NCBI GenBank assembly: GCA_963402885.1
Contig: OY727093.1
Span: 7,885,501-7,949,500, forward strand
Length of the DNA: 64,000 bases
Direction of reading: 5' to 3'
DNA from: Antedon bifida
Taxonomy: Eukaryota > Echinodermata > Crinoidea > Comatulida > Antedonidae
Under the pieces are notes generated by a model. That model worked only from the letters and a program-made list of their open reading frames with translations, did no database searches and was not told where the DNA came from. The position numbers and the translations under genes were made by a program. This document shows positions 11,282 to 60,325 of this stretch, piece by piece. Within the stretch, counting starts at the first letter, position 1. Every line of letters starts with the position of its first letter.

Positions 11282-11821
11282 ATGGCATCGGCAAGCCAAC
11301 TACCGCATAGGAATCAGAACCATTTAAATTCATGCCGTTTCTACGATTCCCCTCAATATAATGGATTTTCGAATTATGATCAGTTTTACCAAGACAACGA
11401 CCATTATTCGTCATACTCGAAGTATCCAAAAAGTCCGGACGAACTGTACGACGGCGACGAAAACTGTGAAAATGATGAAGAATGTTGGCGACGAGAAGAG
11501 AACCCAGATCATGTGTTGAATCCTGGTCATGCAAGGCATGGTAATCGCAGCTGTCTACTTTGGGCTTGTAAAGCCTGTAAAAAACAATCACATAGTTTGG
11601 ACAAACGCCGCGCCGCAACCATGCGAGAACGCAGGCGGTTAGGTAAGGTAAATTCGGCATTTGAAACTTTAAAACGGCACACCTGTCCGAACCCAGATCA
11701 GCGTATTCCAAAAGTTATGATATTAAGACACGCAATTCAATACATTGACAGACTGCAAATGATTCTCCATCAAAGTGAACAATCAGATACGGATAGTGCA
11801 AGGGATTCACCATTGAACAGG
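11282..11821 (+). CDS. MyoD: MyoD exon 1 (N-terminus, Cys-rich motif, bHLH)
   Basis: Ends AACAGG|GTAAGT, phase 0. The frame runs past the donor to a stop at about 11851, so the splice is inferred from the perfect donor and from agreement with exon 2. Residues 1-180. Confidence 0.95.
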
Positions 11822-14800
11822 GTAAGTTTATTGATTAAGTTAACATTATAAAAATAACCGAAATAAAGGAAATGAATGAATGATATCATAAGGTTGGAAA
11901 TAGTAAACTAACTTGCATGCTTATTTATTAAATGTCTGCAGAATGAAGTTTCTGCTGCAGTAATATATGATTGTTTTGCAAACTCGTTAAAAATAAATGA
12001 AAGTAAATAATATGTGATGTTTAGTCTTATAATAGTTAATACGATCTTTCAAAGCAACTGACGTTACAAATTAAATGGAAAATTTACTGGTGAAGTTATT
12101 TAACAAAATAGATAAATAGGTACTGAAACATCTGTACTTAATAATATCATTATTACATTAAAGAATATCGTAATATTTATATACAAACTTAAAAAAACAA
12201 ACCGAGTTTCCATCAATGGGTTCAAGGCCCAGCTCGTCAGTGTGAGGTGGAAACGGTCACTTACGTGCCTATAATTTAAAGTATTAGTGGTTTTATTGAG
12301 ATACTTTTATAAATGAAAATTCCACATGGAAATGGGAAGTAAACAATAAGATGACTTATAACGAACTTTCATTTTCTGCAAAGCTTCTTGTGTTTATTAA
12401 TTAGGAAGACAAAAAACAATAATTGATCTTTTTGTTTCATTAACATATTTTACTGAATCGGTTTAAAACAACTTCGCAACGATTTTTCATTTATGTATAC
12501 GAATGATGAATAAATTACTGTATACATATTACATAAAGTATATACATACAGTACAACGGGTATACGGTAATAGGCCTACCTTTTTACAAAATACATTTAA
12601 GTGAAACTAATTTTAAACCATACATTTATGTGTAAGTTTGTAGTATTTTATTTGCTATTATTATTTCACAATAAACCACCTAAAGTTTAAAACGCTCACG
12701 AATTCCGTACGGATTAGTGCAATAATATCTTCATTACGCGGCCTATAGAGGCCCATAATGTAACAAGAATACTCAATAAAAAGGTTTATAACTCCAGAAA
12801 ATCATTTCGATTTTAGGTTAACATGCGATCTTGTTTATCTTTATCAGAGGCTATTTAATGTTGAAAGCGAACAACTTTTTTAAGATTTAAAAATGTGATG
12901 TTTGTGAATAAAACAGTTTCTTGATTAAGGCATGAGTTTACCAGCAGTGATGGTGTTCACACGCAAACGCGACGTATTATTATTTTCGACCTTGATGTCT
13001 CCCACTAATGGGGTACTGTTTGACTTCCTTCCGGTTTTCTCAAGGTGGGTATACTTTTGACAGATCTATCTATGTACCCGGCCTTCGAGGTGTACCTATG
13101 TAACTGGTGTAATTCTATGGTAACTGGCTATTAATGTACAATTACAATTGAATTCAAGATGTACTATCTGTCTTCGTTGAAGTCACCAAATGTAATTAAC
13201 TATAAACATTGGATTTTTAAATTAACTACCTCTCTACCAAAGGAAATGCTGGGACAGTCCTTTGGTCGTTAGTTTTAGTAAATGAGGAAACTTCGCTCCA
13301 CCGTTTTGATGACAAAATTTGTTAGCTAAGGTTATTTTTACTTATTTTTTTATAGCTCAGAGTTAATAGTAAAGTACAATGAAACAATCCTGCTTGATTA
13401 TAATTATTATGTATGCTTTTATTTTGGTGTGTTCGTTAGGGCCATCTGGATAAAACGGTATTTAATCGAATAGAGACCTATTCGAAAATCATGTCTCCAT
13501 TCTCGTTATAAGCTACCGCCCATTCCTTAGTCATTTAAATTGGTTGATTTGTAAAGCAGATTCATATTCTTTTCTTGTACTAAACATTAGCCTATCAATA
13601 TTAAATTAAGTTTTTCTTCTTTTTTTCTAAGTTTCTAACAGGCTTACCCAAGGTCTTCAGGCAGAGGATAGTAATACAGTAATTCTCCTTAACATGTTAC
13701 AACAAATGCTCTTATTAGAACTTCTACAAAATTAGGATACTGAATTTACTAGATAACAATTATTCATCCTTTACAATTATTTCACATGCTACAGTACAGC
13801 GACATGTTTCTTACTTAAGTCAAAAAATCAAATGTATTACCCCGTATATTTTGTAATATCTATGATTCAACAGATTTCATCAGTACTAACCCTGTAAAAT
13901 GTAAACGTATACAAGTAATAGAAATTAGAAAGAATATGTGAGGCACACCCACAAAGATAACAAAAAAATATGCTATAGGCCTTGTGCGATAAACCCAATT
14001 TATTTTATTGATGTGTTGATGTTACAGTTTAGGTTCTGAAAAGTTACGTGTCCACACGTGTTCCAAACGCTGTTTTAAATATTTGAAACGATTTACATTA
14101 TTTATTTATTTGGAGTTCTTTAACACAAGTGCTATGGTTTTTATAAATGTAAAACCCCTACCCGTCTGCGAATGACCTTCTTGGTTTGAACAACGTCTTT
14201 AACTCCCGACAGCGCGGTTAAGCGTCCGAACCGCAACGGCTGTGGTTAAACGTTCTCATTGCTGAATGATATAAACAACCTTTACCCTGATTTCAAGTTA
14301 TAAATGTCAATATGTTTTATACCATTCCCCTGGAATCCCCAATAAGAGGATACCTCCAGGACCCAACAAAGGTCCCTTAAGAAATGTCCTCTGAATAGGG
14401 ATTGGCAAATGTGTTAAAAAATATATTTCCCCTTGGTTTCACGGGAAAGTGTTCGTTTCACGGGAAAGGAGTATTTTATACAGTATTTTGTTTTTATTCA
14501 CGTGCAACGCGACTCTACAGCTTACTATGTCGGTTGATTGGTCGGTCGGTCGGTAAACACTAACTCAAATTTGAGCACGCGACTGCATCCATGTATATGG
14601 CCTTAGTCTTTCTTTTCGTGGACTACTGTATTTATTAAGCTCTTTTCATCAATGGTACCGAAAGAGACAAATGTTGGTGTATCGTCCGCATAGATGAGTG
14701 TTTGTCTCTTCATATTTTAAATTCATAATTTGTCGACCAGAAACTGATTTATTTTGCCTACGAGTCACATTTGTTGATGTAGCTGTTTTTTCTTCAGCTT

Positions 14801-17800
14801 ATGCTGTTTTCCAACCTGACATTATATAAATTCATTTTTTGCAGTATTGTAGGTTCTTGAACTCGAACATTAAGATCACATAATACTAGTGTTTGTGATA
14901 TTCTGGATTCCATACGTGCTCATCTGTTACTGTCATTAATTAACATGACAACTAATTAGAATTAACTATGAGGCGTTTCAGATCTGTAATAGAATTGGTA
15001 GATATTGCACAGTGGAATATTTTGATTTCATAATGATATTTAATTTTCATTTCTCCTTAGGTTTATTATTGTAGATTACATGAAAAAAAAAAGATGACAT
15101 TGTGTAAAAAAAAACAGTACTTTCTAATTCACGGACTCCCCTCCACCACCCTCATCTCGAAATTTCCTCTTTTGGCTTGAAATATTTTAAAGACACAACA
15201 CATACATTTACGTAACTATTCCTATATGAATTTAGATGTTCGTGTAGGCCTACAGAACAGCGAAACTGTCATGGTAACTTTTTATACCATCTTTTATTTC
15301 GATTGATTTGTTCATGATTTAATACAAGAACATTTACGAACTAATTACTTCTAGTCCTATAGGCCTAACAACTTTTTTTTTATTTGTTTAGTTTGGTTTT
15401 TTTTCTCACCTCTACTTACAATTTGTTCGAATGAATAAAACAATAAAATCAACGTGTAGGCCTATTGAGTTATTCAAAAACTATTAGATATAGAATAGAA
15501 GTACATATTACAAACTAATTACTTCTAGTCCTATCTAGGTCTAACAGAAGTTTTTTTTATATTAGTTTTTTTCTCACCTCCACTTGCAATTTGTTCGAAT
15601 GAATAAAACAATAAAATCAAAGTGTATTGAGTTATTCAAAAACTATTAGACATATAGAAGTACATATTACATTGTATTGCTCTTTGTATGAGCATTAACT
15701 TGTTTTTAGAAAGATCTACTTTTCTCTGCGGAATAATTTATTGCTAAAATCCGTGTGTTAGATAGATTAGGCGCACCGAAGTATTGAGTTCTGTCTGCGG
15801 AATAATGAAAATCACTTTATATAAACCCAGTTAGCATTTCCCCGATTACCCAAAACATTTCCGAGTAGTCTTGTTGCGATACAATACAAGAAATAACTAT
15901 TGGTCAAGGCCATTATTAGACTGGAAAGTTTGCATTGCAGCAGTCAATCGGGGAGAAAGTCCACAATCATCAGCAATGGAAAGTTATTTGAATTCCCTTG
16001 CTGATATAAAGTACAACATCGTAGCATAATAGATAAATTTACCTTGAGGATAAAGAAAACGAATTATGCAATTGATATGTTTAATTATTGCGTAGGCCTA
16101 TTCTCTTTTCCTTATTTGGTGTGGTGATATCATTAACTTCTAATATGTCAGTAGCTAGTAGTAGGCCTATCATGACTCGCAATACATATTCGTGAGTGAC
16201 GGGTGATAGTATTTTTTTTAGCCGGGATTAATGCATTTTAGATTCTACTTTAAGTACTTTCAGACCTATCTCATGTCAGGAGCATCTTTTTTACTACCTA
16301 TTTTAATGAAGGCCTCCGAAACCAGTTTCAAACCTGGAAACCGTGAATTACTATAGATACAAAAATGAAATAAATTACTTTAACGCCCGGCAGAGTTTAA
16401 ATAACTTTACGGAATTCTATTTTGTGGTAAAACATTAGAAACATGAAACCTAGCGCTATTAGCTTGTAAGAAACTGAACATTCGCTGCTGTTCAATAAAT
16501 TATTTTAAGCCCCCTACATTTTTATTGTGTAGTTTATTTGCGCATATCATAAGGATAACATTAGAACACGGATCCTCTCTATTCATGATTTAAGAGCAAC
16601 CGGTTTGGGATTTAACCCGGCGCCTTGTTGGTTTTTCGGATCAGGATAATTTTACTAAACGAACCCACGCGAATTGCAGTCTTTTATACATTAAAGTTAA
16701 TAATATTCCTTTTTAATATAACAAACATTAAGATTAAATTGAACAGATTATTTTACAATAAAGGAGGCATTAAAGGTTATCATTTATATTATTACTCTAT
16801 AGTATTATTCTAAACATCTTCTTTGCATTCTGCCTTTTCACCACATTTCGTAAAAAGAGAAGGATCTTCCTCAACAATCAAAAAACAACACAAATCTTTT
16901 ACTTTTAATAGCTTTCTTTCCATTTACTTAATTTTATATCTAATGTCTGTTTATTGAAATAATGTGTATCATATTATAATTATTTTCCAACATATTAAAT
17001 GCAATGCTTACAACACAGGATGAAATGTCAGAGAATGCAAATTAGACATTAAATCCATTTAAGGAATATTTTTTTTAATTCAGACTAAAATATATCGGTT
17101 TCCATGAATATTAACAGTAGGCCTACCTTTTTACACCTTCTTTTTTCTTTAAAATTTCAGACTATGAACCTATATATTGTAATGATATTTCAGTATTTTG
17201 TCCTTAAAATTATTGGAGCTTACAAAAGTGATTTCTTAGTACAGTGTATCTAAAGAATAAATAATTCCACTATATTGCCTACCGTAGTTTATGCCTAGAC
17301 TACACAAAATTGTTTAACTGTATTTAACTGTACATTTTTTTAAATCTAATATTCTTGATTAAAGAGTAAAGTTTTAGACGTAACGCATACAAAAGAGTAA
17401 AGCTGGTGGTGGTCTCACTTTAATGACTGGGTCACAAATCATCCGGGTACAGATTCAATGGGGCGTTTGTGAAATTGCTATTTTACCTGGTAGTTCATTA
17501 TTACTGGGACGATACATGTCAATAACGGTTAAGGACAATATAATTAACTTTGAAAAAAGTACAGTAAATGATTAGTTTTGTCTTTTTCCCATTCACCGCT
17601 TCAGCATTCCTAAATCCTTTCCGGTCAAATTTTCCCAGACCGTCTGGTAATACGCGCGCGTACACTGTGGTAAAAATAACCCCCGCGGGAGACCTATTTT
17701 AATCGAATTATTTCCTCCCCGTGTGAGAGTTTTTTCTTGATATGACAATTTATATTACTGAGATATAATATATTAGCTTTTTAGTGACATCTTTATATTG

Positions 17801-20800
17801 ATATGCGGTTACTTTAAGCCTATACAATTTTGTTTACGGTTTTGTGTAGATTTTATTTTGTCCGGTCCTGAAAACGGGTTACGTTACTTTGGTGGGGGTG
17901 GGGGGGAGGACACCAACTTCCCGTGAAATAAACGTGGTACCCTTAATATAGGGGACACATATATTATAGTCACCCTTTATTTAGGGGACACCTATATTCT
18001 AATTTTTAGGATTGTCTTAGCTTTATGTGCTTCGTTTTTTTATTCAACAATATTAAACATATTTTTTTATCGATTCAAATTCAAAATTATTCCAATTGTT
18101 TTTGTTTTGAATAAACTACAAATCATCCATTTTCCCACAGTCCAACATCGCCTAAATTTACAGCATTAGTATATCAATCAGTGTCGGTAAATTGAGGTAC
18201 ATTACCGTTTGAAGGACACATTTTATTCGTATAATGCCGCTAGAAACATAAGGAAACAAGTTTTCTTCTTCTCTGTAATTCCCCAGATGATATAGTAAAC
18301 ATATTCCCATTTCTAAGAACAGGAGAAGTCAAAGTTAATTGTTTCTTAATCTATCTAAAGCAATCTCTTTTATAAAAATTTAATTTTTACACTCTTGTTT
18401 TTTTATTTTGTTTGTGACAGGCCAAATGTTTAACTCGTTATGCGTCAGTTTACCTTTTTATAACATTATTTACATTATAATATCTTGTTGCGTCGGCGTC
18501 ATTTGATAATACTATGTGAATAAACTATATTTATATGAATGTTATATACCAGGCCTATAAAGTGTATTTTTAATTTTTGTGTAGATATTTTGGTATTTGC
18601 AATCTATCTATAACACTTTAGGTAATAATTAATGTGATAGAATTAATTAAATCTAAACGATTAACACTACGGTATACTTGTATACTATACTGTATGCTTC
18701 ACTGATGTTGATTAAAATGTATATTTCATACTTTGTTGTGTTTTTTCCTTTTTTAAATAAACCGATGCAATCAAAATTTCATAAGATATATAGCTGAGAG
18801 TATCAATGCCAGATTAGTTAAACCCTAACTAATTAACTCCAAACTAGTATATTCGTTAATGTATGGAAGGCAATAACATGCAGTCAATGCAACAAGTAAT
18901 CAACACGTTTGATCCTACAAAAGTAGGGCCTAAATCAATTCTCGTGAAATCTTAATATGGAAAGCATTAGGCCTATAAGTTCCAAAAGTATGGCATACTA
19001 GTTAAGGACACGTAACGTTCTTGAAACTTTCATCGGTAAACTCCGTCAACAGGAGTCCGTTACGGAACTCAGTACAGTCCTGATTACATTAACCACCAAT
19101 ACGTACTCTCAAAAAGGTTGTTTGACATTAGATCAAAAGATCTAGTGTCATTCTCCTAATTGTAACACTTCCTATATCAATCTACCTTAATAGTTTTATC
19201 AGATGGTTTACTTTGGACTACTAAAATCTCTTTAATGCATTATTTCACAATAAACTAAACTGAATTTACAAATATGTGTCCAACTTAATGATCGGTTGTA
19301 TAATATAAAACAACGTACTGTGTAATACAGGCATAACTAAGTTTAAAAACTCTTATGTAATAAGGAAGAACATAGCTTTAAAAAAAATGTCCGGGTCATT
19401 GATGAATAACTGTAAATTATCAGCATATAGGACCCATATAATATAAATAAACAATAATAGAGAAATTGACTCCTGCTTGTGTTAATTCGAGAGAGCCAAT
19501 TATCAATCAAAATGGTCGCCAAAAATGTGATTACATTGCTTTTGTATAATAATTTCCATTTTCTAATAAAAACAATTTCGCAATAGATACTCTAACAGAA
19601 ATGTGATAAATTCTAAAATTTCTGAACATACAATACAACTGAGACAATCCGAGTTCATTATTTTATAGACCTAGTCTTTCTTTAGATTCAGAATGGACTT
19701 GCATTCTTGTAAAGGTTTACGTTTTTTACAGTGATATTAATAAGACAGGTGTTTTATTACGATGTTGCCGCAGAAATCTTTACAGTTGAAAACATTAGTG
19801 CTATGAGAAGTTCTAGATATTTTTAATTGACAGTTAAGTGCCGGTTGTAATTTGCTTCGAGATTTAAAGTAGTAAAAATAAGATGGTTAAAACGTGCATT
19901 TCATTGGTGAAATTCATTCGGTCTACTCTTGCTCTGTTTTTACAGACATTGTATATGAGTGGCATGTAAAGGAACAGTGGCCGTATTCTCCAATCACACT
20001 TAATTCTCTTTACAAAGTATTTCACTTAAGTCAACAACAAATGTAAGAATTTCCCTTAAAGATGTATTGTCCCCCAAAAACATGAAAAATTAAGATTAAT
20101 TAAATTAGACTTTGAATATGTTATTTTGTAGTTTTAATGAAGTTAATTACTTCTGTAGAAAAAAAACAGAAACAAAATAATGTTTTCACTTATAAAATGG
20201 TAAAATAAATGGTTAAATTCAACCAAAAACCCATTGGCTGGCAGCCAATTTGATCATTTTTCTGCTATAAAATACAGTTTTTTCATGTAAATACATTTTT
20301 TTTCGATCCAATTTTTGGTCAAAGTAGATAACTATTATGTTACATTAAAATTGCATATTCAACAAAAATTGTGTTCAGAATTATTTTTTCAGGGGGACAA
20401 TACATCTTTAAGTGGTATTCACGAGTGTTTACCTTAGCGTAGGTGTGACTAACTCGGCTAACCACAACACAAAGAAAAAAAAACGAAAATGTACATTTTG
20501 ATGAGGCGGATACTGCAGGGATGACGGTACCGCTTCCTACTTCGACAGAAAAAATAAAATGATAAACTTTTTTCATATTTCACGAGAAACGTTACTTTGG
20601 GCCCTTCGTAACCATCTGGCTAACTGTTGATCGATTCTCCCCTCTCTTCCCCTTTTCTATCGCCTTTAAAATAATGTTATCTAATTAGAGTTAGCCCTAC
20701 CTGTACATATTAATTCGATTGCAGTTATCTATGACATGGCGTGCTGGGTTTGGCTCTGGGCATGTACAAGTCATAATTATTTTCACATAACGCCAATTTA

Positions 20801-23800
20801 ATTATTGAATTTGTGTATACTTATCGACGGTTAAATAAACACTATATGCTCTGTATTAAAACTCGTACGGTATGCATCTCAATGGTTGTCATTGTTGGTT
20901 TAGTTGTGTTGTTTGTTTAATCAATTCATATTATAGGCCTACCCTTATGTTATAAAAAAAAAAAAATATTTGAATGCTAAACGCTATCTTTAAATACAAT
21001 TTAGTTATACTTTCTATGTGATATATATAATGTGGAAACACCTTAGCTTCACGGCGCCTCATATAACAAATACAACATTTTAAAAGAGCAAAAAAACTAA
21101 CGGAAACATCAATCAAATCTTCCAGAATTAACAAGAATCGTTGTAGGCCTACAAACAATAAAGTATTTTCACAAGTTTTATTCTGTTGATATTTATTCAT
21201 AGCTATACTAGATCATGTCACATGATCAATTACTGAGTTACAACAAATGCTCAGATGCCAACACATCAATCTCATTCTTTAGATAAAATGTGTATAATTT
21301 CTAATTTAAGATTCGATTGATTTTGCCGCGTAAACTTTCTACGCATGCGTGTGGTTAATTAGTATACGTCGGCGTCTAGACATTCTGACTCAATGTTTTC
21401 ATAACTTCATTAATTTTTTCTTGTTTTATTATCCCGGCGGTTATCTATAATAAACGTGTATAGGCCTAATTATTGGATTTGTTAAAACTTGCTTGAAGTG
21501 CGGATGATAAAACAATAGCTCACAAAATAAAATGTCAAATTGTATTGTTTAATTTCTTTTTTTCCGACATTTCTTTATTATCTACTTCTGTTGTTAAGTT
21601 TCAAATTTGAAAAAATAATGACCTAATTAATGGCAATAATGATGTAGGTGGGGTTAATTTTTAAAAATGTACAATTTGGTTAGCATCGCTTTTTTTTAAA
21701 TAAATTCAAACGACTAATTTTGATTCTGCTCTAAATAAAGAAGTTTTAATTTGTATAACATTGCAAAAAAGTGAAAACATTCGCATATCAATAATTGAAT
21801 TAGGCCTAAGCCGCCAAAACCGAGACTCGAACCATAAGTCTTATTCAAACTTGGTATACAGTACCGTAGTAAACAAAGACGCACTTCCATTAAACCACAT
21901 GTTTAAGCACGATTAGATAATATAATAAGCTATAATTATTAGTAGCAACATTGTTGTGTTAACATATGTGTAAAGTGTAATGCAATTTTTGCAAAATTAA
22001 TTTAACATTGGTTGCCAAATACCGTAATGTTTAAAAGTCAATATTTATACAAATACCATATGAATCTAAAATTTTGCCTAAATAACATTTTTTTTTTGCT
22101 ATTGTGATGTTGCACTCGAGTCATCATGAATAAGCGAAATCGTTTTTACTAGTATGCAGTTACGTTAAAACTCATGATTTAAAAGATGCCTGGATAACAA
22201 AAAAAAGACTTTACAATCTGGAAGAAAACAAATTGTGTTTTACCTGATATGGCCTATAGTTATAGGCCTGTAACAAATGTATCTGAAGGAGTTAATAAAA
22301 GCAGGACTTTTTAAAATGCCTTTAAAATGTAGATTGTATACTTTACACGTGTAAAATGTCTCGAAAATCGTCTTGTCTTTTCACGAAATAAAAAAAAAAC
22401 TAGAAGAAAATGGCCGTGTGGTTCGGCGAGTAATGAGTTCGATTTCACGGTGATAATTATATCTGAAGACAATGACATATTATATCCTAATTAGATCACT
22501 ATTATTACATCACATTAATATTTAATAAAATTAGCAACAAATATAGGCCCATCCGACATTCCTGGCATTCTTTAGCGCTTATTAGCAATCTGCGTTGTGA
22601 CGTATCTAGGCCCATCCTCGCTTCATTGTTCTAAATACAACTATAACTATATAATGATAATTAAGGCCCATTTACACTAGGGCGATAACGATCGACGATA
22701 AAAAGATAAATATGAATTTTTCATACCTAAAACAAAAGAATTTTAAAAAGTTTCCATCCTAGAACTATAGGATTATCGTCTATGCTGCCTTTGATGAAAA
22801 TAATATTTCCACACGTCTAATCAAATGATGTCATGATTAGTAAGAGCAATAGTATTGTTACAATACAACGATTTTATTGTTTTTATTGATCATGACGTCA
22901 TTTGATTGGATTTTCAAAAAATTATTTTTATTAAATACAGCATACTTGATTATCCTATAGTTCTAGAACAAAAACTGTTCTAATTTCGTTCGTTTTATCC
23001 AAGAAAAATGTATGTTTATCTATTTATCGTCGATCGTTATTGCCCTAGTGTAAATGGGCCTTTACATTAGGCCTATAACCCTTATCAAATGAAATTTGTG
23101 TATGAAACTGGTTCAAATGCCTAATTACAATAACAATTGTCAAAATGAAAACCAATACGGTATACTAACGTTTTCTACATTCAATGTTTTTAAGGCCATT
23201 AGTGATAAACAAAAAAATTTAATACATTTAAAGATATATTGTCCCCCAAAAACATGAAAGATGAAGATTAATTAAATCAGACTTTGAATACATTATTTTG
23301 TAGTTTAAAGTTAATCTCTTCCGTTAAAAAAACGGAAAAAAAACAATGTTTTCTCATATAAAATGACAAAATAAATGGTCAAATTCAACCAAAAACCCAT
23401 TTGGCTCGCAGTCAATTTGACTATTTTTTGCTTTAAATTACAGTTTTTTTAGATAAATACATTTTTTGTTAAAAGTGGATAACTATTATGTGACATTAAA
23501 ATGGCATATTCAACAACAACAAATTTTAATTTAATTAATTATTTTTTCAGGGGGACAATACATCATAATCTGAACAGCGATACCCGTATTTAAAACTAAT
23601 ATACCTGTTTCAAAAAACAAACAAATAGAAGTTACTTAACAAAGTACAACATGTAATTGATTTCTAGTTCTTATGAATACACTTGGATGGTTTTAAGTTT
23701 GTCGTCAAATCGTAAATGATTGTGCAACACGGAAATTTATCTCGCCTAAGAACTTTTTATCATCGACACAGTCGGAATAACAAGCGTATCACTGCATGTA

Positions 23801-26800
23801 CTCGATACCTCATCACAGTGTGATCCCGATTCGAAAATATAGCCAATGTATTCCCCGAGAGACCAAATAAATGGAAAATCTGATTTCTTATATTGTATCA
23901 AATTTTCTTGAAAGACGCGAACGATCTAGAAATTTACGTAGCGTAGATTGGGTAATAACATGGATACGCTACTGGGACGAAGCGGATGGGTGTCACTTTA
24001 CCTCCCTTGTTTGCAACCGAACCCGTATCCTAGGCCCAATTATTGTTATAGCTAGGCCATGCAAACTCAACTGTCTAGGGTGAAATTATTTTGTTAAAGG
24101 CAGGGTGAACAAACAAAGAAATGTATGTTTCGTCAAGGAATATGATACATATTGATTTTTAGGAGTAAACTATGTGATAATATCTTGAATCTTTGAACAC
24201 CATCATGTACTGTTGGCATGCCTACAATGCATTTCAAAAGATGTTCAAAACATTAACAACAGCACTCACCTTTTATTTTCCAACAATGTTAAAGTATCGA
24301 TTTTATTACAAAATCAAACAAATACTAATTATATAAATTGTTTAACAATTGTATTTATTGTGTTGTTGTGCAGTTACAGTAATAGACTCTCTTCAAGTCT
24401 CTAGTTATTTTTCTACCATGTTCCAACATTCTTATAGTTTTACTAATACCGTATAAAGTGTAATTCTAATTAAATTATTCTTTAACAGGGTGACGATCAT
24501 ATTCGAAAGAATGGAAATTGCCGACTTAGAAGTTTAGATGGTGATTGGACTTTCGAGAATAACGGTAATTTTTGATTTTTTGTTTTTTGTTTCTGGTTCT
24601 AAATGTTTATAGTATATCATTGTAGAGGTGTTTAAAAGTTTGAAATTGAAGGAAAAACAATGAAACGTATTGACGTGATAAAGTACACATTGACGAAATT
24701 TGAAATGTTCTTGCTTGTTTCTAAAATAAGACAATTATGAATGTAACGTTTTAAACATTGTACCCTTGTAATTTTATGTTTTCAAACATTAATTAACTAT
24801 TAATGGATAGGCCTATTAATATATGGATGTACAACATTTCAAAAGTTTAGTAAAATCTACAACTACAAGATAGCAACGTTGAGTGTTACTACAACATTGA
24901 GGCGATAATTAATTTGAAAGGTCATTGTTAAAATACAGTAGACCAGTTAAATTTAACATTTTGCGTTTTTTCAGTACTTATAGTACGACACTACTAAATT
25001 CATAATACAAGTAAACTAACATGTACTGTATATAACTCAAGTTAACCGCAAAGACTGAGAGAAATTATACTAATTGCTCAACACGTGCGCGATGTCGTAG
25101 GAGGCTTGGTTACACGTATTAAAGACCATATTACCACATAAATCACTCCTCGTGAGTAAAGTCAAGCTCCGCTAGAAATCAACCTAAAATATCGCAATTA
25201 ACACTGTGGAATAGGATTCCGTCATAATATCATAATTATGCTTGTCATATCTTGTCATTTCATGTCATAAATATAACATTAATGCACCTGTATGCCTATA
25301 TTAGGCCTTGCTGTCTTGACGCCATTTATCATCTTAAGTGAGCCACGGGACATTCAATTATAATTAAGTGATGGTGTTTGATTTGGCAAATTATTATTTA
25401 AGTAGGAAATGATCTTAATAAAATGTCATTGTAGTCGATGTATCAATTCATTATGTTTTATATTGAGGCAATGAACTTTCTGCAAACCATAAAGTGTTTC
25501 CTAAATGCCTATTTTAATATTAATAAGTGGTATATTTCTTACAGTACAGCTTTTGTTTCCAAATTCAGCCTTTGAATTTCTGTTCTATAAGAATCATTTA
25601 TATTAATTTGGGACGCACTTTTCAAATCGAGACTGAGTCAACTTGAGATGAGTTTTATTTATAAATATTGTTATATTTGTGTTTTATTGATTTATATTAT
25701 ACACATTAGTAACAGATATACAGTAGGCCTATATTGTCGTAATGATGAGAACTTATTATTAGATTAAATTTAAATTTGCATGTATCATCGCTTCTACATA
25801 TAAATGTATGTAGTAAAGCGAATACTCTTTTTAACTAAATTACATTTAGAACGGACGGAGTTTGTTAAAATTGTCTTTACTTTTTCCCGTAACATTGGAA
25901 TGCAGCAACCTTCCCGTAATTTATTTCAATTTGAGAGGTAATAATTCACTGTTCAGAGACCGGGGTATCTTTCAGATAGATTATTTTAAAAGACAGGGAT
26001 ATCCCTAGAGATGTTGGGGTTGTGTTTTGCATAGCTATCAATTGGTTTACCAGTATTAGTCGCGTTTAAATCTTAACTTTTCACGTACAAAAGTTTTACT
26101 GTGGCGCCATCCTGCTTCATTATTGATCGCAATAACAGAGTCTTGGCATCCCTCGGTATGTTAAGTACAGTCTGTATCATTATAATAATGTTTTATATGG
26201 ATTCGTATCCACCTTTATAAGTGCAATGATGCACATATTTTGATTATTATTTGAAGACCATTTCCCATTTTACATAAAATGTAATGTAAACAGATCATGT
26301 GATTTTATTACATAAGAAAAAAAACACTATCAATAATTTAAAACAAAATTATTTTTACAGAAGAATGAAAAGAAAAATGTTATAAAAGACTGTACTCATG
26401 CTGAATAAAAATACTAATTATGCTTTAATTAAATACAGTTCCAGTATATATCATATCATTATTATATTAATACAAATTTGATGTTCAGTTTATAAAATTA
26501 TTTGAGATTCTGCAAATGATCGTGCGATATATCGTAAAACAGAACATTCAAAGAAACTTTTGTCACTCCCTAAGCTCTCGTAAAAAATACGATACTCACT
26601 GAACCATGATGCCATCACTCCTCCTCTAAAATAAGTTGAAAGCAAAGATTTCAATCCAATGCCTACCACGAAGCCATATCCAATGATTCATACAAGCTAT
26701 TATCTACGGACCACTAGCAGCTAAAAACACGGAATAAAGTACGTTTATATTCGTCTGTTGTGGATAGTTATCCGCCGTCCGAGCACGTTTCGTGAACCCG

Positions 26801-27458: not shown

Positions 27459-27531
27459 TGACGTCACTTATTGTTTTACGCATCACTGACTAAATATAAA
27501 TTCTGTACATTACGGGACACAGGAAAACAAA

Positions 27532-28344: not shown

Positions 28345-28507
28345 TAAAGCTCTGTCTACATTGTCAAACTTTAGGGGCAAAATGGGATGTGCACATATTG
28401 GACATGATGATGTCATATCACTACCAAAGTTGGGAATATCACTACCATATTTGGGCACATCACACCTTTTTTGTCAAACAAGATTGATAGTGTATACAGA
28501 GATTTAG
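28345..28507 (+). mobile_element. MITE family A copy 3
   Basis: Left end TAAAGCTCTGTCTACATTGT and right end GATAGTGTATACAGAGATTT. The interior has GACATGATGATGTCATATCA and a CCATATTTGG box at 28445-28454. Confidence 0.88.
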
Positions 28508-37598: not shown

Positions 37599-38088
37599 AG
37601 ATTTTATAGATATTGTCATTCCAAAAATATAGTACTGGCCTGTCTATCATTAACATTTTGTTTACAAATTTAACATAATAACAAAAATACAGTATTACAT
37701 AGTGCGCGTGGAAATGGATAGCACATTTTATTTTGGCCTGGTTGAATCGTTCTAATTTTGTTTGATTTGGAAAAAAAAAATATTTCTGGGGTGAAAATAT
37801 TGAAAGATGTTACAAGTGTGATCAGTGTGACTAAACAACTGAAATTTGAATACAGGAAATTCACTGCCTTGGAGATAATAATACCTTATATAAATGTTGG
37901 CAATGCTGACCACCAATAACTTGTACAAATGGTTGTATAAATACATTGATATACTTTAGGTAACCATTGCAATCCTCTCCCAAATCTGGTTTTGCCAGCA
38001 AGAAATTACCGGAATAAATTTTCTCCAACCGGTACTTTTAAAATGGTGTAAATTTTTATAACACAGAATAAACACTTATTTGCTGGGC

Positions 38089-38245
38089 TTAAGCTCTGTC
38101 TACACTATCAAACTAGTGTGAAAAAAAATTGATATGCCCAAATATGGTGGTGATATTCCCAAATATGGTAGTGATATGACATCATCATGTACATATATGG
38201 GCATTTTTGTTACATAAAGTTTGATAGTGTAGACAGAGCTTTAAA
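38089..38245 (+). mobile_element. MITE family A copy 4
   Basis: TTAAGCTCTGTCTACACTAT at the left and ATAGTGTAGACAGAGCTTTA at the right form near-perfect inverted termini. Two CCAAATATGG boxes lie at 38138-38147 and 38159-38168. Confidence 0.92.
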
Positions 38246-49442: not shown

Positions 49443-52368
49443 TATCTTTGTCCATCATGCTTGATTGGCCTAAACATTTTCAATAAACAGACAGAAATTT
49501 ACTTTAGAAATATTAAAATAATGAATACTTTATAATTTATCACGATGACTATCGAACTTCCCATAATAAAAATGTCTGCGATAAATATGAATATTTTGCA
49601 TTTTCTACATTAAATAAATATTATACATTAAGTTCATCCTCTTCCGTTTTCAAGTAGTAATAGTAGTAGTAACTCACAATATGAAAAGCCAAATCCGTCA
49701 AATTAGCTTTGCATACCACACATATTCCAATAATATTTCGTATACGTCGTAAATCAACTCCTAAGTTTAAGTCATAACTTCCTAATCAATAAATATTCAG
49801 CATTTGTAAAAATGGTTCATATTTTATTGTTATTTATTGTTTTTATCACATTTTAGTGAAATGTGACGTTTTAAAATTTTCTTTCGTTTCCTGCGTACAA
49901 TCGGCATTTTACTCAAAAAATCATACTAAATAACATACCACCATCAAAAGTAACAATTATTATCAATTAAATAATATAATTAATTATTATTTAATATTAT
50001 AACGATATCAATATCTGTATTATAGAAATATTATAGAAATAACAGAGGAATTCCAGTTCGAATATCGGTTGGGATTACCTTTTCACACTCGCGCATTTGC
50101 GTTTTACGAAAAATGACTATTATTATTTTGTATTATTTATTATTATTGCGGTTAAAATGTTCTGGTTTTTTTTTAAACGGAAACCGATATTGTTGTGGGC
50201 CTACTCTTTTAAATAAAAAAAAAATATGGCAAGAAAACGTGAATTACTATAATGTATGTCGCCCCCTAACGACAGAAACCATCACTTGATTTTACTGTGG
50301 TAGGCAAAATAACTCTTACGTCAGACTCTTGTCTAGGTACGCGGTTATTATCAAAACCAACTCGTTTAGAGATTAATGAATTTCCGTTCCTTTATGGCAT
50401 AGCCCTAGTCTTAAAGTATCGATAGCTTAAACAAATTAAATTTTCAACAAGGCAAGTGGAATACCACACTTCATATCCAATCATACATTCATTAAATAAT
50501 GTTTGGGAAGAATAATACACATAATAATAATATGACCAAACCTTGCTGGAGGCCTACAGGCTTATTCTGCACAGAAAAGGCAATAGAAAGAATATATTAT
50601 TTTTAAATTATTAATTAATATTTAACCGTCAATAATTGACGTATGTCAGTTATTAGAAAAGTGTTAGATACTACATTTCAGCCTATATAAGACCAAAACA
50701 AAACAAAATGTTTATTTATCTATTAGGTTTAAATATGTTCTTTTTATCTAAAAAAATAAGATAGCTAAATGGAAAATTAAATGTACAGTAAAAGGACTTG
50801 GATAGTTCAATGCTGAGAGCAAGGAAGTTTTAAATAACGCTGAACTGTGACGTCATTAGCCATCGTGTTATTCTTATCGTTGTGTTATTTCAATTTTTAT
50901 TGATTAATCATTACGAATCCCTAAAATACCAAAGATGCAACATTAACTGACAAGCATTCGATGACAACTCTGTCGGGATGCTAGGCAGCCTTGACCCTTC
51001 ATCTAAGCTAACCTGCCACCCGCCGCTGGATGGTGTCTTCCACTACAAGTTCATGTTTAGGCTAATCCGCCGTCAAATTCCTTAAACCATTTAATATAGA
51101 ATCAAAAGCAACGAATAATGTGTCACAAATTTGTTACAGACATCCAAATGCTTATGGTTATTTAGCGTTTCTCTCAGTGGGAGGACTGAGGCAACGCGAA
51201 GATACCCCCATGGTCGCTCGTATTGAAAGTTGTACATCTTCATTAAACAATTGTCAGACAAACGTTACTAACAATGTTACTAGCTATAGACAAATAAACA
51301 TACAATTGTTAAGTCTATTGTTAGTATTATTTTATTGTATATTTGATGGTATACCCTATTTAATAGATCTCTAACTATCATTGTATTAAACAAGTCCAGT
51401 TGTATAGATTTATCTTTCTAAACATTGTTATGCATATTTTCTTTTTTGCAGGTTTTTTTTCTTTTTATAATTACTAAAAAACCTCAATAAATAAATAGAT
51501 TGAATTAAAATTGCTACTTCATAAATAGCAAGCTTGTCTTTGAAAAATGGCTTTGGCTTTTCAAATTACGATTTCTTGCCTAATATTAATAAGCAACCCT
51601 TGAAAATATAACAATAGACCTGACCTGGATGGTTTGTGTGGATAGCATAGGTAGTAATAAAAATATCTCTTTCTAACACAAATTTCAGTCTACCAATCAT
51701 AACACAGAACGTTTATGAACCATTGAATTATGAGTGATTAACATTAATAGGAAAAAGTATTGTTGTATGATGTTATTTACGATGCCACCTCTCAGACAAA
51801 TTATTCGTAAGTATTTTGTATGTATCACATAGACCTATGCCGATACTAAATTACCTTTTAAATAAAAATTGAATTAACTTTCAATGGTTTGACATAATAA
51901 TCATGAAAATTACATCTTCCTTTCTTTGATCAGTTTAGTAGTATTATTCCTTTTGAACACGTTCTGTTTGACCCGTTGAGTAAGGCGTATAATACCTGGC
52001 CATGACCAAATCAGTCGCCGGAAGTGGAAATATTTTGTTGTCAACGTTCTTTTCTTCTGAATATTAATATCAATACAAATTTCAAATGCATCAACAACAG
52101 ATTTGAGATCATCGGATTTATTGTTTTAATGTTTTTTAAGAATTGTACGAAAAAGAAACTTATGGACCAATTCGGTAATAAAACTACTTCGAGAAAGTAC
52201 AATTTTATGTTAGCTCGATTTCTTTTACGACATTATTACCGCGTTTTAACCTTGGAATATTATATAACATTTTATTCTAGAAAACATGTAAATTAAATGA
52301 ATGGTTATGAAATAACATTAAAAACTGTAATATATTGTTTGTATTTAAAAGCAAAATCATATAAGAAC

Positions 52369-52475
52369 AAGGCCATATACATGGCTGCAGTCGCGTACTC
52401 AAATTTGAGTTAGTGTTTACCGACCGACCAACCGACCGACCATCCGACCAACATAGTGAGCTGTAGAGTCGCGAC
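52369..52475 (-). repeat. Dispersed repeat with (GGTC)n core, copy 2, inverted
   Basis: Reverse complement of 14508-14605: AAGGCCATATACATGG, ACTCAAATTTGAGTTAGTG, a CCGACCGACCAACCGACC core, and CTGTAGAGTCGCG. Confidence 0.85.
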
Positions 52476-54098
52476 TAAACATATGAGACAACCCCTTGGA
52501 AGGATTTAATATACAGTACAAACATAGATATGATACAAAGTATTATAGGGTAGGGTACTTTTATTTTTAAGTGATTTCCCATAAAATTAAAGTCACAATA
52601 TGGCCGTATTTTATTGTATTAGAAGTTTCCGGTTGGTTACTACTTTATTAGTCTTATGTCTGTCTAAATTAGTCTTATGCGGTCTATATGGTGTTTTAAC
52701 ATGTAATTAACTCGATAGTGGTTCTTGCTCTAGACAAACCCAATATGTCTAACGTTGAATTTAAAAAAGAATCATGTTCTTGAAATAATCTCATCATCTA
52801 GATTTATGACTAATACATTTTAAATATTTGTGTGTGATTTAATCATCGTAATATATTTTTGTAATCAGTTCATACATGAATTGGATGGACACAAATATCA
52901 TCGCACTTAAAAAATAATAATTTTGTTGCTTCACATGTGAATAAAAATGCATCAAACAAGACTCCGTATGGAGACGGAACAAAAGCGTTTAAAAATGTGT
53001 ACATCCATAAAAAAAAAAAATAAGCCTATTTTATTCGATATGACGAAACTTAGAAGAGATGGACGTTTGATGCTTATAAACTTTTGTGATATACTGTACA
53101 TAAGACCCTAATTATTTTCTGGTATAGGCCTAGGTGAAATCTATATTTATAGTGTTATTTGCGCTCTGCCTTTTTTTATTTGGCAAGCGTTTTCTTGTGG
53201 TTGCTGAAGCAAAATACGTTTTCCCTGTTATGAATAAGCCAAACGAACACAACTTGGAATGACATTGCATTCGTCACCTGTTTCTGATACATTTTTACAG
53301 GTTTATAATTACTTACTCAACTCCCCTGGGACTAGTGAAGTGTTGGGTCCCAGAATAAAACCCCAGGGTGGGGAGGCGTGTTTGTTTTTATTGGCACACA
53401 CTTGAGAAATAATAACTGTGAACGGAGTTGCAAAACAGATTTTAGTTGGGTAGTTTAGGCCTACACACGTCTGAACACACTGGATTGGTATATTCACGAT
53501 TTAAGGAAGAATAATTAAACAACTTTTGTCTGTACGATCAACAAGCAGTATACAAACACATCTCATTTTAGTTTAAGTAAGAACAAAATTACTTTATTAA
53601 TTTCATGTATTTGTGTTGCGCTGCTAACCTCCTGCTAATCTTCAAGCTTAAGGAGAACATTCTTTAGAACACGAAGATACTCTAAACAAACATACAACGA
53701 GATTTCTAAGAATTATGACCCCATTGGGCGTTCGTAACTAATTGTATGCATGCAATAAACACATTGCTTTAAATATTATATTTGTAATGTAACCTATATC
53801 ATACATACCGTAACTATGCTCTAATTCCGTAATACCGTCCACCATACGCCGACCATGAAAGTGTACAATATCAGTATAAATCGAAGTGAAACTATGTACA
53901 GGTATAGCATGGAGATCAAAATAAAAATGCTAGCTTGCACAGGTGATCACATACTGCTTTGACCACCTGGACCAAGGAAACGAAACACAATTCATGAAAG
54001 AAATACATTTTCCTTTCTGATATATATACAGTATCGCACATTTTGTCAGTGGACACACCATTTTGACACTCGTGTACAAATGATGATAGAAATGGTAC

Positions 54099-54310
54099 GG
54101 TTTGTGTACGCGCGCGTTCAAATGCTGATAAAAGTGTGCTGTTTACGCGCGCGTTCAAATGTTTATGCAAATACAGTAATACAGATTGTGTACGCGCGCG
54201 TTCAAACACTGTTGAAAATAATAAAGTATTTGTACGCGCGCGTTCAAAAACTGATTGGTACTCGCGCGCGTTTAAACACTTATGGAAATGATATAGCTTT
54301 TGTACGCATC
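54099..54310 (+). repeat. CGCGCG/TTCAAA array, 5-6 units
   Basis: TGTACGCGCGCGTTCAAA recurs with spacings of about 40-60 bases, each followed by a variable AT-rich segment such as TGCTGATAAAAG or CACTGTTGAAAATAA. It creates repetitive ORFs with YARVQ motifs on the plus strand and ERARTQ on the minus strand, which I regard as artefacts of the repeat. Confidence 0.88.
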
Positions 54311-56629
54311 GTTATACTGATAACATTTGTATCACTTTTATAGGCTCGTTTAAACCTGTTTCAAACTATTACAAAAAAATACAAAATCATCACAATTTTA
54401 ATTACATCAATCTTTTTATTTGATCACTTTAAAGATAAGAGAGGAGAAATAAATACACGGTTCACTGTCTTATTTACAATATTTACAAAAGTTTACATAA
54501 TTACTGCGTTGACAATACGAATAATGTAAGATCATCTAATATATAATATTATCAAGTTTAAAAATGGTATATAGAAAAAGCTACCTCACGGCAAAACGGT
54601 TATCTATTCTGTTACGAACGGACGTAATTGATGTGTTATGTGAATACAAAAACATTGAATTTAATATTGTTACGGTTCTAAGCGTGGTACAATTAATTAT
54701 AAATCACAATAAATATGTTATAATCTAATGAAATATAGAATCCATTTGAATATAATTATTATTAATTTATTAATTATATTCTCAAATACCATACACATCG
54801 GATAATGAACATTATATTAACAATAGGTAACAAGGCTCTATAAAAAAAATCAAATAGGAATTTTTACTGAAGTATTTTATATAAATTGAGAAACTCTTCA
54901 GATAAAATGACGGTTCCTAGAGAGTACAAAATATAAACATTGAATTTAAAGAAAGGCTGATTTAATTAGCGGTATTTTGCCATTGGCATGGTCAGATAAA
55001 CGTAATGTTAATAATATCAGCAGGTATACAAGAGAAGAAACATTTGTGGTACAGACATACCAAGTACACCGTACCCCTAAAGCCATATTTTTTTGCGTTC
55101 TGAATCTTGTGACCTTGATAAAGCGGAACATTGGGGACTAAACAGATACCGCTTACCATAAAACTAGTGGAAATTAATAGGAAATTGAGTATCAATATAC
55201 AATTTCCATATCACACCAACCAATTATAAAGCATTAATTTTACACACATTCGCAAGTTTCGTTTTATTTTATCCGATGTTCTGTATGTATGCAATGAATT
55301 ATTCATTTATGCTAATATCTCATAAATATTCATATGATAAAGTTGGCATGAGTTGAGGTATCAGTAATTCATAATTGTATAATACTCGTATTATAAATAC
55401 TTATTTTCCAATAAGAATTTTTTAAGTAATAATTTCGGAAATAGATTGATACATATTTTACGCTATATACAATTAAATATACGAAAGGACTTTACAACTT
55501 AGTACTGAATTAAGAACCTACCACTAATTCTAAAGTGAAAGATTAATATTGATAGAACACTTCACTTAATATCTTCAAAATTACAAAATGTTTCTCAGGA
55601 CGTAAAGTTATAATCATTCCATAAGAGCATTACGATAGTGTAGTATTTTTTATTAAATTTGCATAGGTTCGTTAATACTATTTAATTAATCATTTTATTT
55701 TTTTGTCTCAAAATGATACCAAGAATTCAAGAAATACTTTATTCAAATCTTACCCGTGTTACCAATTACAACGCCGTTAAAACATTTAAAAGCATTCTTT
55801 AAGATTAAAACTAACATTTTTCTAAGGAAGGTCACATTAAATACCTTTTAATGAGTTATTGAATTAAAATCACTGTGTTCACTAATTACGTATGGCTTAT
55901 TTTTAAGGACATTTTAAAGATTATTTTTAAGGACTTTTTTTTAGCAAAGAGCCAAATCTAAATGTATACTAGCTGATGTCAAGATAAGATCGATATCAGA
56001 ACTACAATTATCTGGCTAATTTACCTATTAAGTCTCTTTGATAGCTTTCATAGGTTTCATATTTTGTAAACTATAAAATCGTTAACTTTACTATAAATAT
56101 GCCTAAAACTTACTAATAAAGTATATAGGCCTAAGCATATTTGATATGTTTAATTTACTGGTGAATCTTAATACAATCTTTCCTTTTGCATGCTCTTAAT
56201 TTGGCCCTACAATTTTGAATTAGAAAATGTAACATTCATGTCTCTGTAACAACAATAATAGGCCTAACTAAAAACTCTATTTTTTCTAACAATAATGTTT
56301 TACTCCTCTGTGATGTTGTTGTTTGTTCAGGCATAATACAAATTCATTATTAATACGAAGTTTCTTATAAAGGTGTTCTTATTTTGTATATAAATAAGTA
56401 GTGGATTATGAATTTATCCTGTAATCAATTCCTATAAATCTATACATCTATTGGTAAGTTTTATTTCTTGTTCATTCTTTATTAAACACTTGTTTCTAGT
56501 TATGTAACATACTAATGTCCACAGTACTGTTTTACAGTACTGTTTCTATATCTACAATAAATAACACTACTTCCAAAGGCTTACTAAACCTCCATTAGCA
56601 ATGGTGAGATCAAGCAGTACTACCATGTG

Positions 56630-57065: not shown

Positions 57066-57289
57066 ACTAGGTAAAATATTAGTAGGCTTAACAATAATAA
57101 TAATATTATGTAGTAAATTAATAAAATTCAATTTGTACACACATGATAGAAATATAATTAAAATATACAAAAATGACAAAGAATATGATACATTAATGGG
57201 AACCAAATATTGCATTTAAATATTATAAACTGTCTCAAATGATGGTCGTTCATTTCCTTAACTTGATACAGTACCGTAGTATATAATCC

Positions 57290-57429
57290 TTAAGCTCTGT
57301 CTACACTATCAAACTCTATATGACAAAAAAGTGTAATGTGCCCAAATATGGAAGTGATATGCACAAATATGGTAGTGATATGACATATTTTTTGTCACAT
57401 AAAGTTTGATAGTGTAGACAGAGCTTTAA
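57290..57429. mobile_element. MITE family A copy 5
   Basis: TTAAGCTCTGTCTACACTAT and ATAGTGTAGACAGAGCTTTA form the termini. A CCAAATATGG box lies at 57342-57351. It sits about 230 bases past the stop of the minus-strand MyoD paralogue, so it may fall in or near that gene's 3' UTR; its end also supplies a minus-strand ATTAAA. Confidence 0.92.
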
Positions 57430-57662
57430 TTCAGATTCAGAACGTGCAGAAATATACCCAATCTATCTTTACATCGTTTGTTTGACTTTTTAATATAACA
57501 TATAAAAACAATTGTAATTGTACACATTCATAATGTTGGCAAATATACCCAGTTCTTTGTTGAATACTTAAACGTAATCAATTCTTAGCTGCTTTTAATT
57601 GTGTTATTATTAAATAACATTATAATCTGGAACCATAAGTATTAGGAATTGAATGGTGGTTT

Positions 57663-57790
57663 TCAGCATACGCACATTCCATCGGCTGTAGCTTTCTTGG
57701 GTGATGTGATGGCTTTGCCTTTATTTGGAGTTATACTTTCAACAATAAGGGACAGACAGTCAAGACTTGATGTACTTGTGCAATGGTATC
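57663..57790 (-). CDS. MyoD: MRF paralogue exon 3 (helix III, stop)
   Basis: Acceptor ATTGCAG|GA on the minus strand. The two bases complete a Gly codon begun in exon 2. TGA lies at 57665-57663. Confidence 0.92.
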
Positions 57791-60325
57791 CTGCAATTTA
57801 AAATAAATGTAATATAAATAATGTGATTTATTAGCTTATCATTAACACTTATGTATAAAGGAGGGGTAAATCCACAATTGAATTATAATGTAATAAGATA
57901 AATACGATATCGAAAAGAATAAATAAACGATCTGTCGCATAAAATAAAAAATACCCGTAAACCTGATCAATATTTCATGTCTAAATTATTATAGAACATT
58001 AAATCTTTCAATTGTTTCAAAATGTATTTTCGAAGAAATATAAAGTGATTAGGCCTAATATTCTTTAATTTTTATTTATTCAACTTCTCACAAAGATGTA
58101 CATTAGTTCGGTAAACACCTCTGAAATGGTCCAGTCCCAATTTCACAGTGGTTGTTGTTTTTGTATCATAAGTAATAAAGTAAAAATATAGAGTATGACT
58201 TCCGAATACATTATTAACATTTTTATACTTTATTTAGTTTGGGATATTACGAAATGCATAACAATAATGAAACTTATTTTACAGGCAATAAATTGCATCA
58301 TACAAGGCGGTAACTGTATTTGTATTTCTTAATTCGTTCTTATGATATTAAGTGGACAGAGGAAATAATCAAATGATAACTAATTTAAAATGTGCTATAT
58401 TAATTTATTACAAGAAGGACGCGTTAATTTATACGTAAAAACAATGACAAAATATTTTAATTGAATTTAAGACGTCCTGGACGAAACAAAGTCAATGGTT
58501 ACATAAAAATAGTCGTTAACTTTTTGCGCGAAATAATCTTCGACACAAACAAACACCGAATGCGCGCGAACGTTTTTGTTTTCTAATTATCATCTTATCT
58601 TTTCGATATAGCAATTTATTTCCAGATTTGCATGCATCACAATGTCAATTATGATTTTATTTGGATCAACTGTAATTTACTTTATAGATGAACCAACATG
58701 GTTAAACATATTTTGTTGGAATAAGATGTATGAAACTAAACTACCAGACATTTAAATTGAGTTACGAATCAGATAAATATCACTGTATCCATTGTTGAAG
58801 GATTACGCCTAATGCAAGCCATAACAAGAAACCACGTCGAACCATACTGTACTAAACTAGGCCTACATTCGTATTTGATCTTCATATTTACGAGTGTTGT
58901 CTAAAAGTATTTTTATTACAATGAAATATGTAAAACATTAAAAACGTCAAAGTTTACCGAATGGAATTGTAATGTTATTATTTCCAAATGAACATCCAGT
59001 GAGTAAAATGCGGTGCGTAAACTACATGTTTTATGTTTCCATGGAAACATTTAACGGTTGCATATGGAACACCAATGAGCTATGTGTCTACCAAAAAAAC
59101 GTTATTTTTCTTGCACTTAATCAATCGACTATTGAGACATCATTACCAATACTTTTTAAGTGATTATCTATCCAATTTAATTAATTTAATTTCCTGAGAG
59201 ACTTTATACGGGTTTCTCATTCAAGCACCCACAAAATAATTCATTACTGCATAAAACGTATTTATGAGTATTTACTGGTCCATTGTGGTGTACATCTTGA
59301 TCTTACAACCAACAAGGGAGTGATTTGGCGGCAAAACGTGGGGTGCTTAGACCGGCCTGGCGGCGCTTAGAATTTGTGATTGTCCCGCTAACCCCAATTG
59401 GCTAGTCATTACGAATGACAATAAAGAAAGTACTGGTATCTTTCGGTATTATTGGAACTGTATGATTAGCAAACCATCCGGATTGGCGTCTGTTTGTTTT
59501 GGGGCGGTTTTCGAAACGTTCTTAAAGAGCCATCAACGTCGTTTTGCGTTTAATGTTAGGCAAACTAATCATCTATCAATGTCAACATGTTTACCTGGCT
59601 ATATATCCGTGCTTATCAAACCAAAGGCCATGATATTTTTTTTTATAATTCATGTGATTTTGTTTTGATAAAAGAATATGTAAACAGTTTAGGCAGAGAC
59701 ATCTGCAGTTAGAAAAATGTTGCAGATTGTCATCTGTGAATTGGCAGTCTGTTATTTATGATTGCCAACAAGGGATTTACACCAATGGGACATGAACTTT
59801 TTAAACATAATTGTAATTGTAATGTACAAGGAAAAAATGAAAACATCGATGTTTGATTTAAGTGGTAAGGTGTGTGATGTATGACGACGGAATCAAAGAT
59901 ATAAGTGAATCGTTGGAAATGTCACAAAAACACGCGCGCGTAAGTTATACGTTGCTACTATTTGCGACACACGGTGAATCGACTAAATTCTCCGTAACAT
60001 TTATAATAAAAATGAAAATATCAAAATAAGTTATTTCTGTGAATCTACGATCCTAAAATACCGTAACCGTCACATCAAGCAGGTACCACCAACATTATGA
60101 CGTCATGCTATGAATAATATCGAACGCTATCATTAATAATGACGTATCCTACACTATAAGTTACGTCAGAGAATCGTTCTGATGGTCCCCAAGTTATTAG
60201 ACTCATTATACATTAGAAACATACATGTGATGGTGCTCACCATAAGAGGATGCCACATCGTAATTGTCTCCGTAATGATGTAATTTATCCGAAGATGAGT
60301 AAGAACCGGGACTACTGCTCTCTGT
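57663..60325 (-). CDS. MyoD: Second MyoD-family (MRF) gene, exons 2 and 3; 5' partial
   Basis: Join on the minus strand of 60325-60241 and 57790-57663 (70 codons plus TGA). Exon 2 reads TESSSPGSYSSSDKLHHYGD and on to ASSY; exon 3 reads YHCTSTSSLDCLSLIVESIT, then PNKGKAITSPKK and ends GMCVC. SSLDCLSxIVxxITP is the canonical helix III of MyoD, Myf5 and relatives, a C-terminal chromatin-opening and activation segment. Ser-rich SSSPGSYSSS matches the Ser/Pro-rich linker found before it in the family. Intron phases (0 into exon 2, 1 between exons 2 and 3) equal those of the gene at 11282-27458. No bHLH exon was found between 60326 and 64000, so exon 1 must be outside the window, as its sister's 12.7-kb intron 1 makes plausible. 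It is convergent with the first gene. Confidence 0.9.
57791..60240 (-). other. Intron 2 of the MRF paralogue (about 2.45 kb)
   Basis: Similar in length to intron 2 of the sister gene. AT-rich; the ORFs at 58972-59163 and 59462-59668 lack support. GC-richer patches lie at 58555-58575 and about 59330-59400. Confidence 0.75.
60241..60325 (-). CDS. MyoD: MRF paralogue exon 2
   Basis: Acceptor TGATTTACAG|ACAGAG and donor TTATG|GTGAGC on the minus strand enclose 28 codons plus one base. Confidence 0.88.

Follow-up and report, generated by a model that had tools for sequence, protein, structure and literature searches.

A convergent pair of MyoD-family genes in the crinoid Antedon bifida, probably the counterpart of the sea urchin MyoD1/MyoD2 cluster

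The locus considered here raises two questions: whether a crinoid carries a linked pair of MyoD-type (MRF) genes, and whether such a pair arose by the same duplication as MyoD1 and MyoD2 of sea urchins. The original prediction was made from a 64,000-nucleotide stretch of the A. bifida genome, C1:7885501-7949500, below called the window. It placed a three-exon MRF gene (gene A) on the plus strand and exons 2 and 3 of another MRF gene (gene B) on the minus strand, and explained the pair by an inverted duplication. The present analysis indicates that the locus is probably a crinoid MyoD1/MyoD2 cluster in convergent arrangement. Orthology is what we infer here, genes A and B having most likely been produced by the ancient duplication that produced the sea urchin genes. 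The features of the locus are the following, positions beyond the window being given as window-equivalent.

11282-11821, plus strand: gene A, exon 1, coding; ATG at 11282, 540 nt, exit in phase 0 at the donor GTAAGT; encodes the N-terminus, the Cys-rich motif, the basic region and the HLH
24489-24564, plus strand: gene A, exon 2; 76 nt, from phase 0 to phase 1
27340-27458, plus strand: gene A, exon 3; helix-III-like stretch, stop codon TGA
27532, plus strand: gene A, AATAAA 3' of the stop codon TGA
27459-57662, no strand: interval between the stop codons; 30.2 kb, no gene recognised
57599, minus strand: gene B, ATTAAA 3' of the stop codon TGA
57790-57663, minus strand: gene B, exon 3; SSLDCLSLIVESITP, stop codon TGA
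60325-60241, minus strand: gene B, exon 2; 85 nt, from phase 0 to phase 1
76443-75847 (window-equivalent; C1:7961347-7961943), minus strand: gene B, exon 1 with the bHLH, beyond the window

Gene A occupies 11282-27458, as originally described. Its frame runs over three exons without a stop codon, the splice sites match the consensus, and the spliced protein is 244 amino acids long. Exons 1 and 3 would otherwise be out of frame, and thus an intervening exon of length 3n+1 is needed. Among the 99 splice-bounded open frames of 60-110 nt and length 3n+1 that can be placed between exon 1 and exon 3, exon 2 ranks first. The same is true for exon 2 of gene B, the first of 116 such frames. In both genes the ranking used a generic splice-site score with hand-set matrices.

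Exons 2 and 3 of gene B also lie where they were predicted. The test set for the prediction was whether the minus strand has a bHLH exon beyond 60325, on its upstream side, and this exon was found. A whole-genome HLH search places the HLH of gene B at C1:7961431-7961586, minus strand, 11.9 kb beyond the window end; the exon itself ends 11.8 kb beyond it, with a GTAAGT donor (window-equivalent 75847) and an exit in phase 0. The likely start is at 76443 (MMQTMEAM), with further in-frame ATGs on both sides, and the spliced protein has 269 residues. Both MyoD-type genes are therefore full-length and complete. Both consist of three exons, with a small second exon that is entered in phase 0 and left in phase 1, exactly as claimed. 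The further claim that exon 3 carries helix III fits gene B, where SSLDCLSLIVESITP is presumably the helix III stretch; in gene A the corresponding stretch is helix-III-like and altered.

Judged by their sequences, genes A and B are bHLH factors of the MyoD/MRF family, in agreement with the original assignment. In both proteins the myogenic Basic domain (PF01586) directly precedes the bHLH. PF00010 and PF01586 are above the cut-off in both spliced proteins (PF01586: 39.7 bits in gene A and 41.7 bits in gene B, cut-off 25). The genome profile search gave 42.7 bits for PF01586 and 57.5 bits for PF00010 in exon 1 of gene A, and 41.2 and 57.4 bits, respectively, in exon 1 of gene B. The best solved-structure match is MyoD (1mdy, which we take to be the mouse protein), with E-values of 6.1e-24 for gene B and 6.3e-21 for gene A, and the top five PDB matches of both proteins are MyoD or Myf5 chains. 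A tree was built from MyoD of 1mdy and 30 of the 48 genomic HLH exons (60 columns, 16 of the 28 inner branches open); in it gene A, gene B and this MyoD form one clade with support 99/97. The myogenic code consists of Ala-Thr in the basic region and Lys in the junction. A, B and MyoD all have AAT in the basic region, with K in the junction after it, and the Cys-rich motif is kept in both crinoid genes. The spliced protein of gene B passes narrowly for the Myf5 domain PF12232 (23.4 bits, cut-off 23), exon 3 being part of the match; the spliced protein of gene A has no match to PF12232, and keeps a related but altered helix III stretch.

The search of the 315.6-Mb, 27-contig genome with PF01586 at E-values up to 1 yielded two loci, both of them here. 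A 97-aa query from gene B found gene A with 116.7 bits, the next locus scoring 48.1 bits; in both searches the best candidates were scored. With two PF01586 loci and this drop in the score of the gene B query, neither search revealed an MRF gene besides A and B among the best candidates scored in the genome. The genome search with PF12232 gave no match anywhere, gene B included, and is uninformative because the match in gene B spans exons. Close-set bHLH exons occur at three other places, C1:3320329-3405212 (four), C1:13969859-13976309 (two) and C9:23843747-23896749 (two), so that a local cluster of bHLH exons is no exception in this genome.

The genes are convergent, tail to tail. The stop codons are 30.2 kb apart, close to the predicted distance of about 30 kb, and the start codons are about 65 kb apart. 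An assembly join inside the interval had been named as a possible objection. It is answered as far as gaps are concerned, as the 84 kb read contain no N; this check covers gaps only. In the interval, none of the 12 stop-to-stop frames of at least 87 aa scores above a curated Pfam cut-off, the best being DUF1420 with 16 bits (cut-off 19). The scan covered the 12 longest of the 114 frames of at least 50 aa. Frames open on both strands at 53919-54340 overlap a tandem repeat of 47 bases (TRF array 54140-54255). Neither has a Pfam match, and thus this is probably not a gene.

The 30.2-kb interval may be regulatory or simply long. The number of canonical MRF E-boxes in it is at chance level (11 observed, 9.7 expected). 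The motif CA[GC][GC]TG was counted in seven regions, each with 100 first-order Markov shuffles. The observed count was reached by 5 of the 100 shuffles for intron 2 of gene A, by 7 for intron 1 of gene B, by 40 for the interval, and by 43 to 100 for the other four regions. No claim is made that E-boxes cluster in a way that points to shared or auto-regulation. Enhancers common to genes A and B would be a guess.

The bHLH regions of A and B coincide in 41 of 57 amino acids and 114 of 171 nucleotides (66.7%). For urchins, passages of Andrikou et al. (PMC4175510) give 66% nucleotide identity between the bHLH regions of MyoD1 and MyoD2. Synonymous divergence between A and B was not estimable by the method used. 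The similarity of the two nucleotide values indicates that the duplication is old, and an identity of about 66% is at saturation and dates nothing precisely.

How the pair arose is less clear than the original prediction suggested. The part that stands is that there are two MRF genes, convergent and related by duplication. The identical intron phases, however, cannot serve as evidence of an inverted duplication, since the exon plan is family-wide and MRF genes of any origin should have them. Phases of exactly 0 and 1 are those of other MRF genes. In the protein alignment of A and B the introns are 4 and 7 columns apart, at a place of low conservation, and the second exons of the two genes have little sequence in common. 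According to passages of PMC7530620, the exon structure of MRF genes is similar across amphioxus, other invertebrates and vertebrates. A tandem duplication, head to tail, with a local inversion afterwards would account for the pair just as well.

Relics of the duplication were sought with blastn, the left 42.6 kb being compared with the right 41.4 kb. With stringent settings, exon 1 matches exon 1 in inverted orientation (11495-11748 against 76194-75941, 68%). Outside exon 1 there is a single strong inverted match between the two genes, from intron 1 to intron 1 (14498-14633 against 66267-66130, 81%). It was rejected as a relic of an inverted duplication, being a dispersed repeat with a third copy at 52473-52363. 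Genome-wide, this repeat has at least 43 matches, found in the 40 places scored out of 2305 candidates. It has a core of about 107 bases, with many copies at 88-95% identity; the copies at 14498-14656, 52363-52473 and window-equivalent 66130-66267 sit in the first intron of gene A, in the interval and in the first intron of gene B, respectively. The remaining strong matches are repeats as well, such as those of the region at about 57.3-57.4 kb with 3.4, 4.7, 28.4 and 38.1 kb. The respective copies of this dispersed repeat are at 57289-57429, some 230 bases past the gene B stop codon, and at 3390-3490, 4689-4814, 28345-28507 and 38088-38244, in both orientations. With looser settings the exon 1 match extends into intron 1 (11479-12225 against 76210-75455, 59%). 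The intronic extension is at shuffle level, its score being reached in 82 of 200 shuffles and by 32 of 166 stretches of the region, and was rejected. Many further loose matches (53-62%) were set aside.

One possibility is that a single ancestral MRF gene was duplicated in crinoids only, either inverted or head to tail and independently of MyoD1/MyoD2 of urchins and starfish, gene A then having evolved fast. We consider this rather unlikely. A and B do group apart from vertebrate MyoD, although weakly (93/57), and three bHLH sites are common to A and B but absent from MyoD; however, this grouping rests on one vertebrate MyoD, an outgroup too distant to tell. An independent expansion of MRF genes has been published for amphioxus (in passages of PMC7530620). 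On the other hand, the divergence of A and B is as deep as that of urchin MyoD1 and MyoD2 (66.7% and 66% at the nucleotide level, synonymous divergence not being estimable), and no non-coding homology of A and B was found in the compared 42.6 and 41.4 kb beyond the genome-wide repeat. Finally, two-gene clusters exist in urchins and in one starfish, which makes shared ancestry the cheaper explanation. It is very improbable that one of the two genes, A or else B, is decaying into a pseudogene or is partly an assembly artefact, with one functional MRF gene left. Gene A indeed lacks a PF12232 match and has an altered helix III and a longer branch (0.32 against 0.089). However, its 244-aa frame stays open across the three exons, uninterrupted by a stop codon, and its splice sites match the consensus; the Basic and HLH domains are full, AAT and K are kept, and the region is free of N.

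Under the preferred reading, a crinoid MyoD1/MyoD2 cluster, gene B more likely corresponds to MyoD1 and gene A to MyoD2, as far as sequence comparison can suggest. The bHLH of MyoD (7wz6) is identical to that of gene B at 46 of 57 positions and to that of gene A at 40 of 57, and the tree branches are 0.089 and 0.32, respectively. Gene A has eight unique bHLH sites and gene B has two; the difference in relative rate is not significant (p = 0.11). In passages of PMC7530620 hemichordate MRFs are nearer to echinoderm MyoD1 than to MyoD2, the support of the ambulacrarian clade node being low (49/0.84/26). The assignment of gene B is suggested by this position of the hemichordate MRFs together with the greater closeness of B to MyoD. 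However, it is urchin MyoD2, not MyoD1, that is closer to Drosophila nautilus (passages of PMC4175510), which weakens the naming of the conserved gene B as MyoD1.

Genes A and B are a linked MRF pair in an echinoderm. Two MyoD genes in sea urchins, mentioned in the original prediction, are indeed on record, as clusters of MyoD1 and MyoD2 have already been published (passages of PMC7530620 and PMC4175510). Such clusters are described for S. purpuratus, L. variegatus and the starfish Acanthaster planci in passages of PMC7530620, where the two-gene state is inferred to be ancestral to ambulacrarians, with low node support. The present locus resembles the echinoderm MyoD1 (SUM1)/MyoD2 cluster in having two clustered MRF genes and in the bHLH nucleotide identity (66.7% here, 66% in urchin; passages of PMC7530620 and PMC4175510). 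It differs in its host, since crinoids are the sister group of the other echinoderm classes, those studied so far (passages of PMC9793003). The orientation is convergent here, whereas the urchin and starfish pair is called "clustered in tandem" in passages of PMC7530620, no orientation being given there. No third MRF gene was found here in the searches described, whereas MyoD3 is reported for S. purpuratus (passages of PMC4175510), with no clear relation to other MRFs (passages of PMC7530620).

Other linked MRF genes are known in chordates. Amphioxus has several, as noted originally: a five-gene cluster, which is similar to the present locus in local duplication and in the family exon structure, but differs in gene number and is judged independent by the authors (passages of PMC7530620). 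The vertebrate pairs Myf5-Myf6 and MyoD-Myf7 also consist of two linked MRF genes, but come from a separate duplication on the chordate side (passages of PMC7530620). The word "crinoid" does not occur in the text of PMC7530620. Among the matches listed, no published crinoid MRF pair is named in the titles and abstract beginnings of the open-licence literature, and passages of listed papers in which both "crinoid" and "MyoD" occur do not describe a crinoid MRF gene. The locus is thus of a known kind, in a class with no report named among the matches listed.

If A and B are members of the MyoD1 and MyoD2 clades, the duplication predates living echinoderms. Such a crinoid pair would place it before the phylum crown, as inferred in passages of PMC7530620. 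In urchins, expression of MyoD1 is seen in skeletogenic mesoderm, and that of MyoD2 in the myogenic region (passages of PMC4175510). The crinoid pair would provide an outgroup for deciding whether the skeletogenic role of urchin MyoD1 is original or a later takeover. The arm muscles of crinoids are described as obliquely striated (passages of PMC7563492), and thus a muscle type is available in which the genes could be tested.

The proposed mechanism involves two paralogous genes that would encode bHLH activators, each with the three-exon plan, B being closer to vertebrate MyoD and A more divergent. Binding of E-boxes together with an E-protein partner is established for the MRF family. Since AAT, the junction lysine and the Cys-rich motif are kept, each of the two proteins is expected to bind E-boxes as a heterodimer with an E-protein. 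Both genes would then switch on mesodermal differentiation programmes, and their expression domains may be divided between the two copies. The helix III of gene B is presumably close to the vertebrate form, whereas that of gene A is altered, which suggests a different partner or chromatin activity of the two proteins. A more far-reaching proposal, which we regard as doubtful, is that the convergent MyoD1/MyoD2 order is ancestral to living echinoderms and has been kept by regulatory DNA in the interval needed by both genes, crinoids retaining the state that predates recruitment of urchin MyoD1 to skeleton making. Such an order would have persisted for roughly half a billion years.

The window also contains, at 150-1899 of the plus strand, the 3' part of a candidate gene similar to phosphonoacetaldehyde hydrolase (phnX). 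The stretch 605-997 matches, from about position 743, phosphonoacetaldehyde hydrolase structures (best E-value 1.6e-13), and has no family in Pfam. Inspection by eye placed further exons near 1275-1347 and 1711-1899. The product would be a phosphonate-breakdown enzyme in an animal genome.

In the mitochondrial contig (C27, 15,844 bp) cox1 is open under code 9, and also under codes 5 and 13. The strand opposite to cox1 carries both rRNAs, nad1, nad2 and nad6; nad4L is located between nad4 and nad5. The scan by family covered 11 of the usual 13 protein genes, all but cox3 and atp8, and identified each of them. The composition of the cox1 strand is A 26.4, C 11.4, G 15.4 and T 46.8%. The rRNAs, nad1, nad2 and nad6 have the same strands in the feather star Thaumatocrinus, an arrangement which, according to its authors, is that of other crinoids too, apart from two species that they name (PMC10013537), and the composition in Comaster schlegelii is A 26.73, C 11.38, G 15.89 and T 46.00% (PMC8820819). 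The strand pattern and composition of the contig are most likely those of a crinoid-type mitochondrion.
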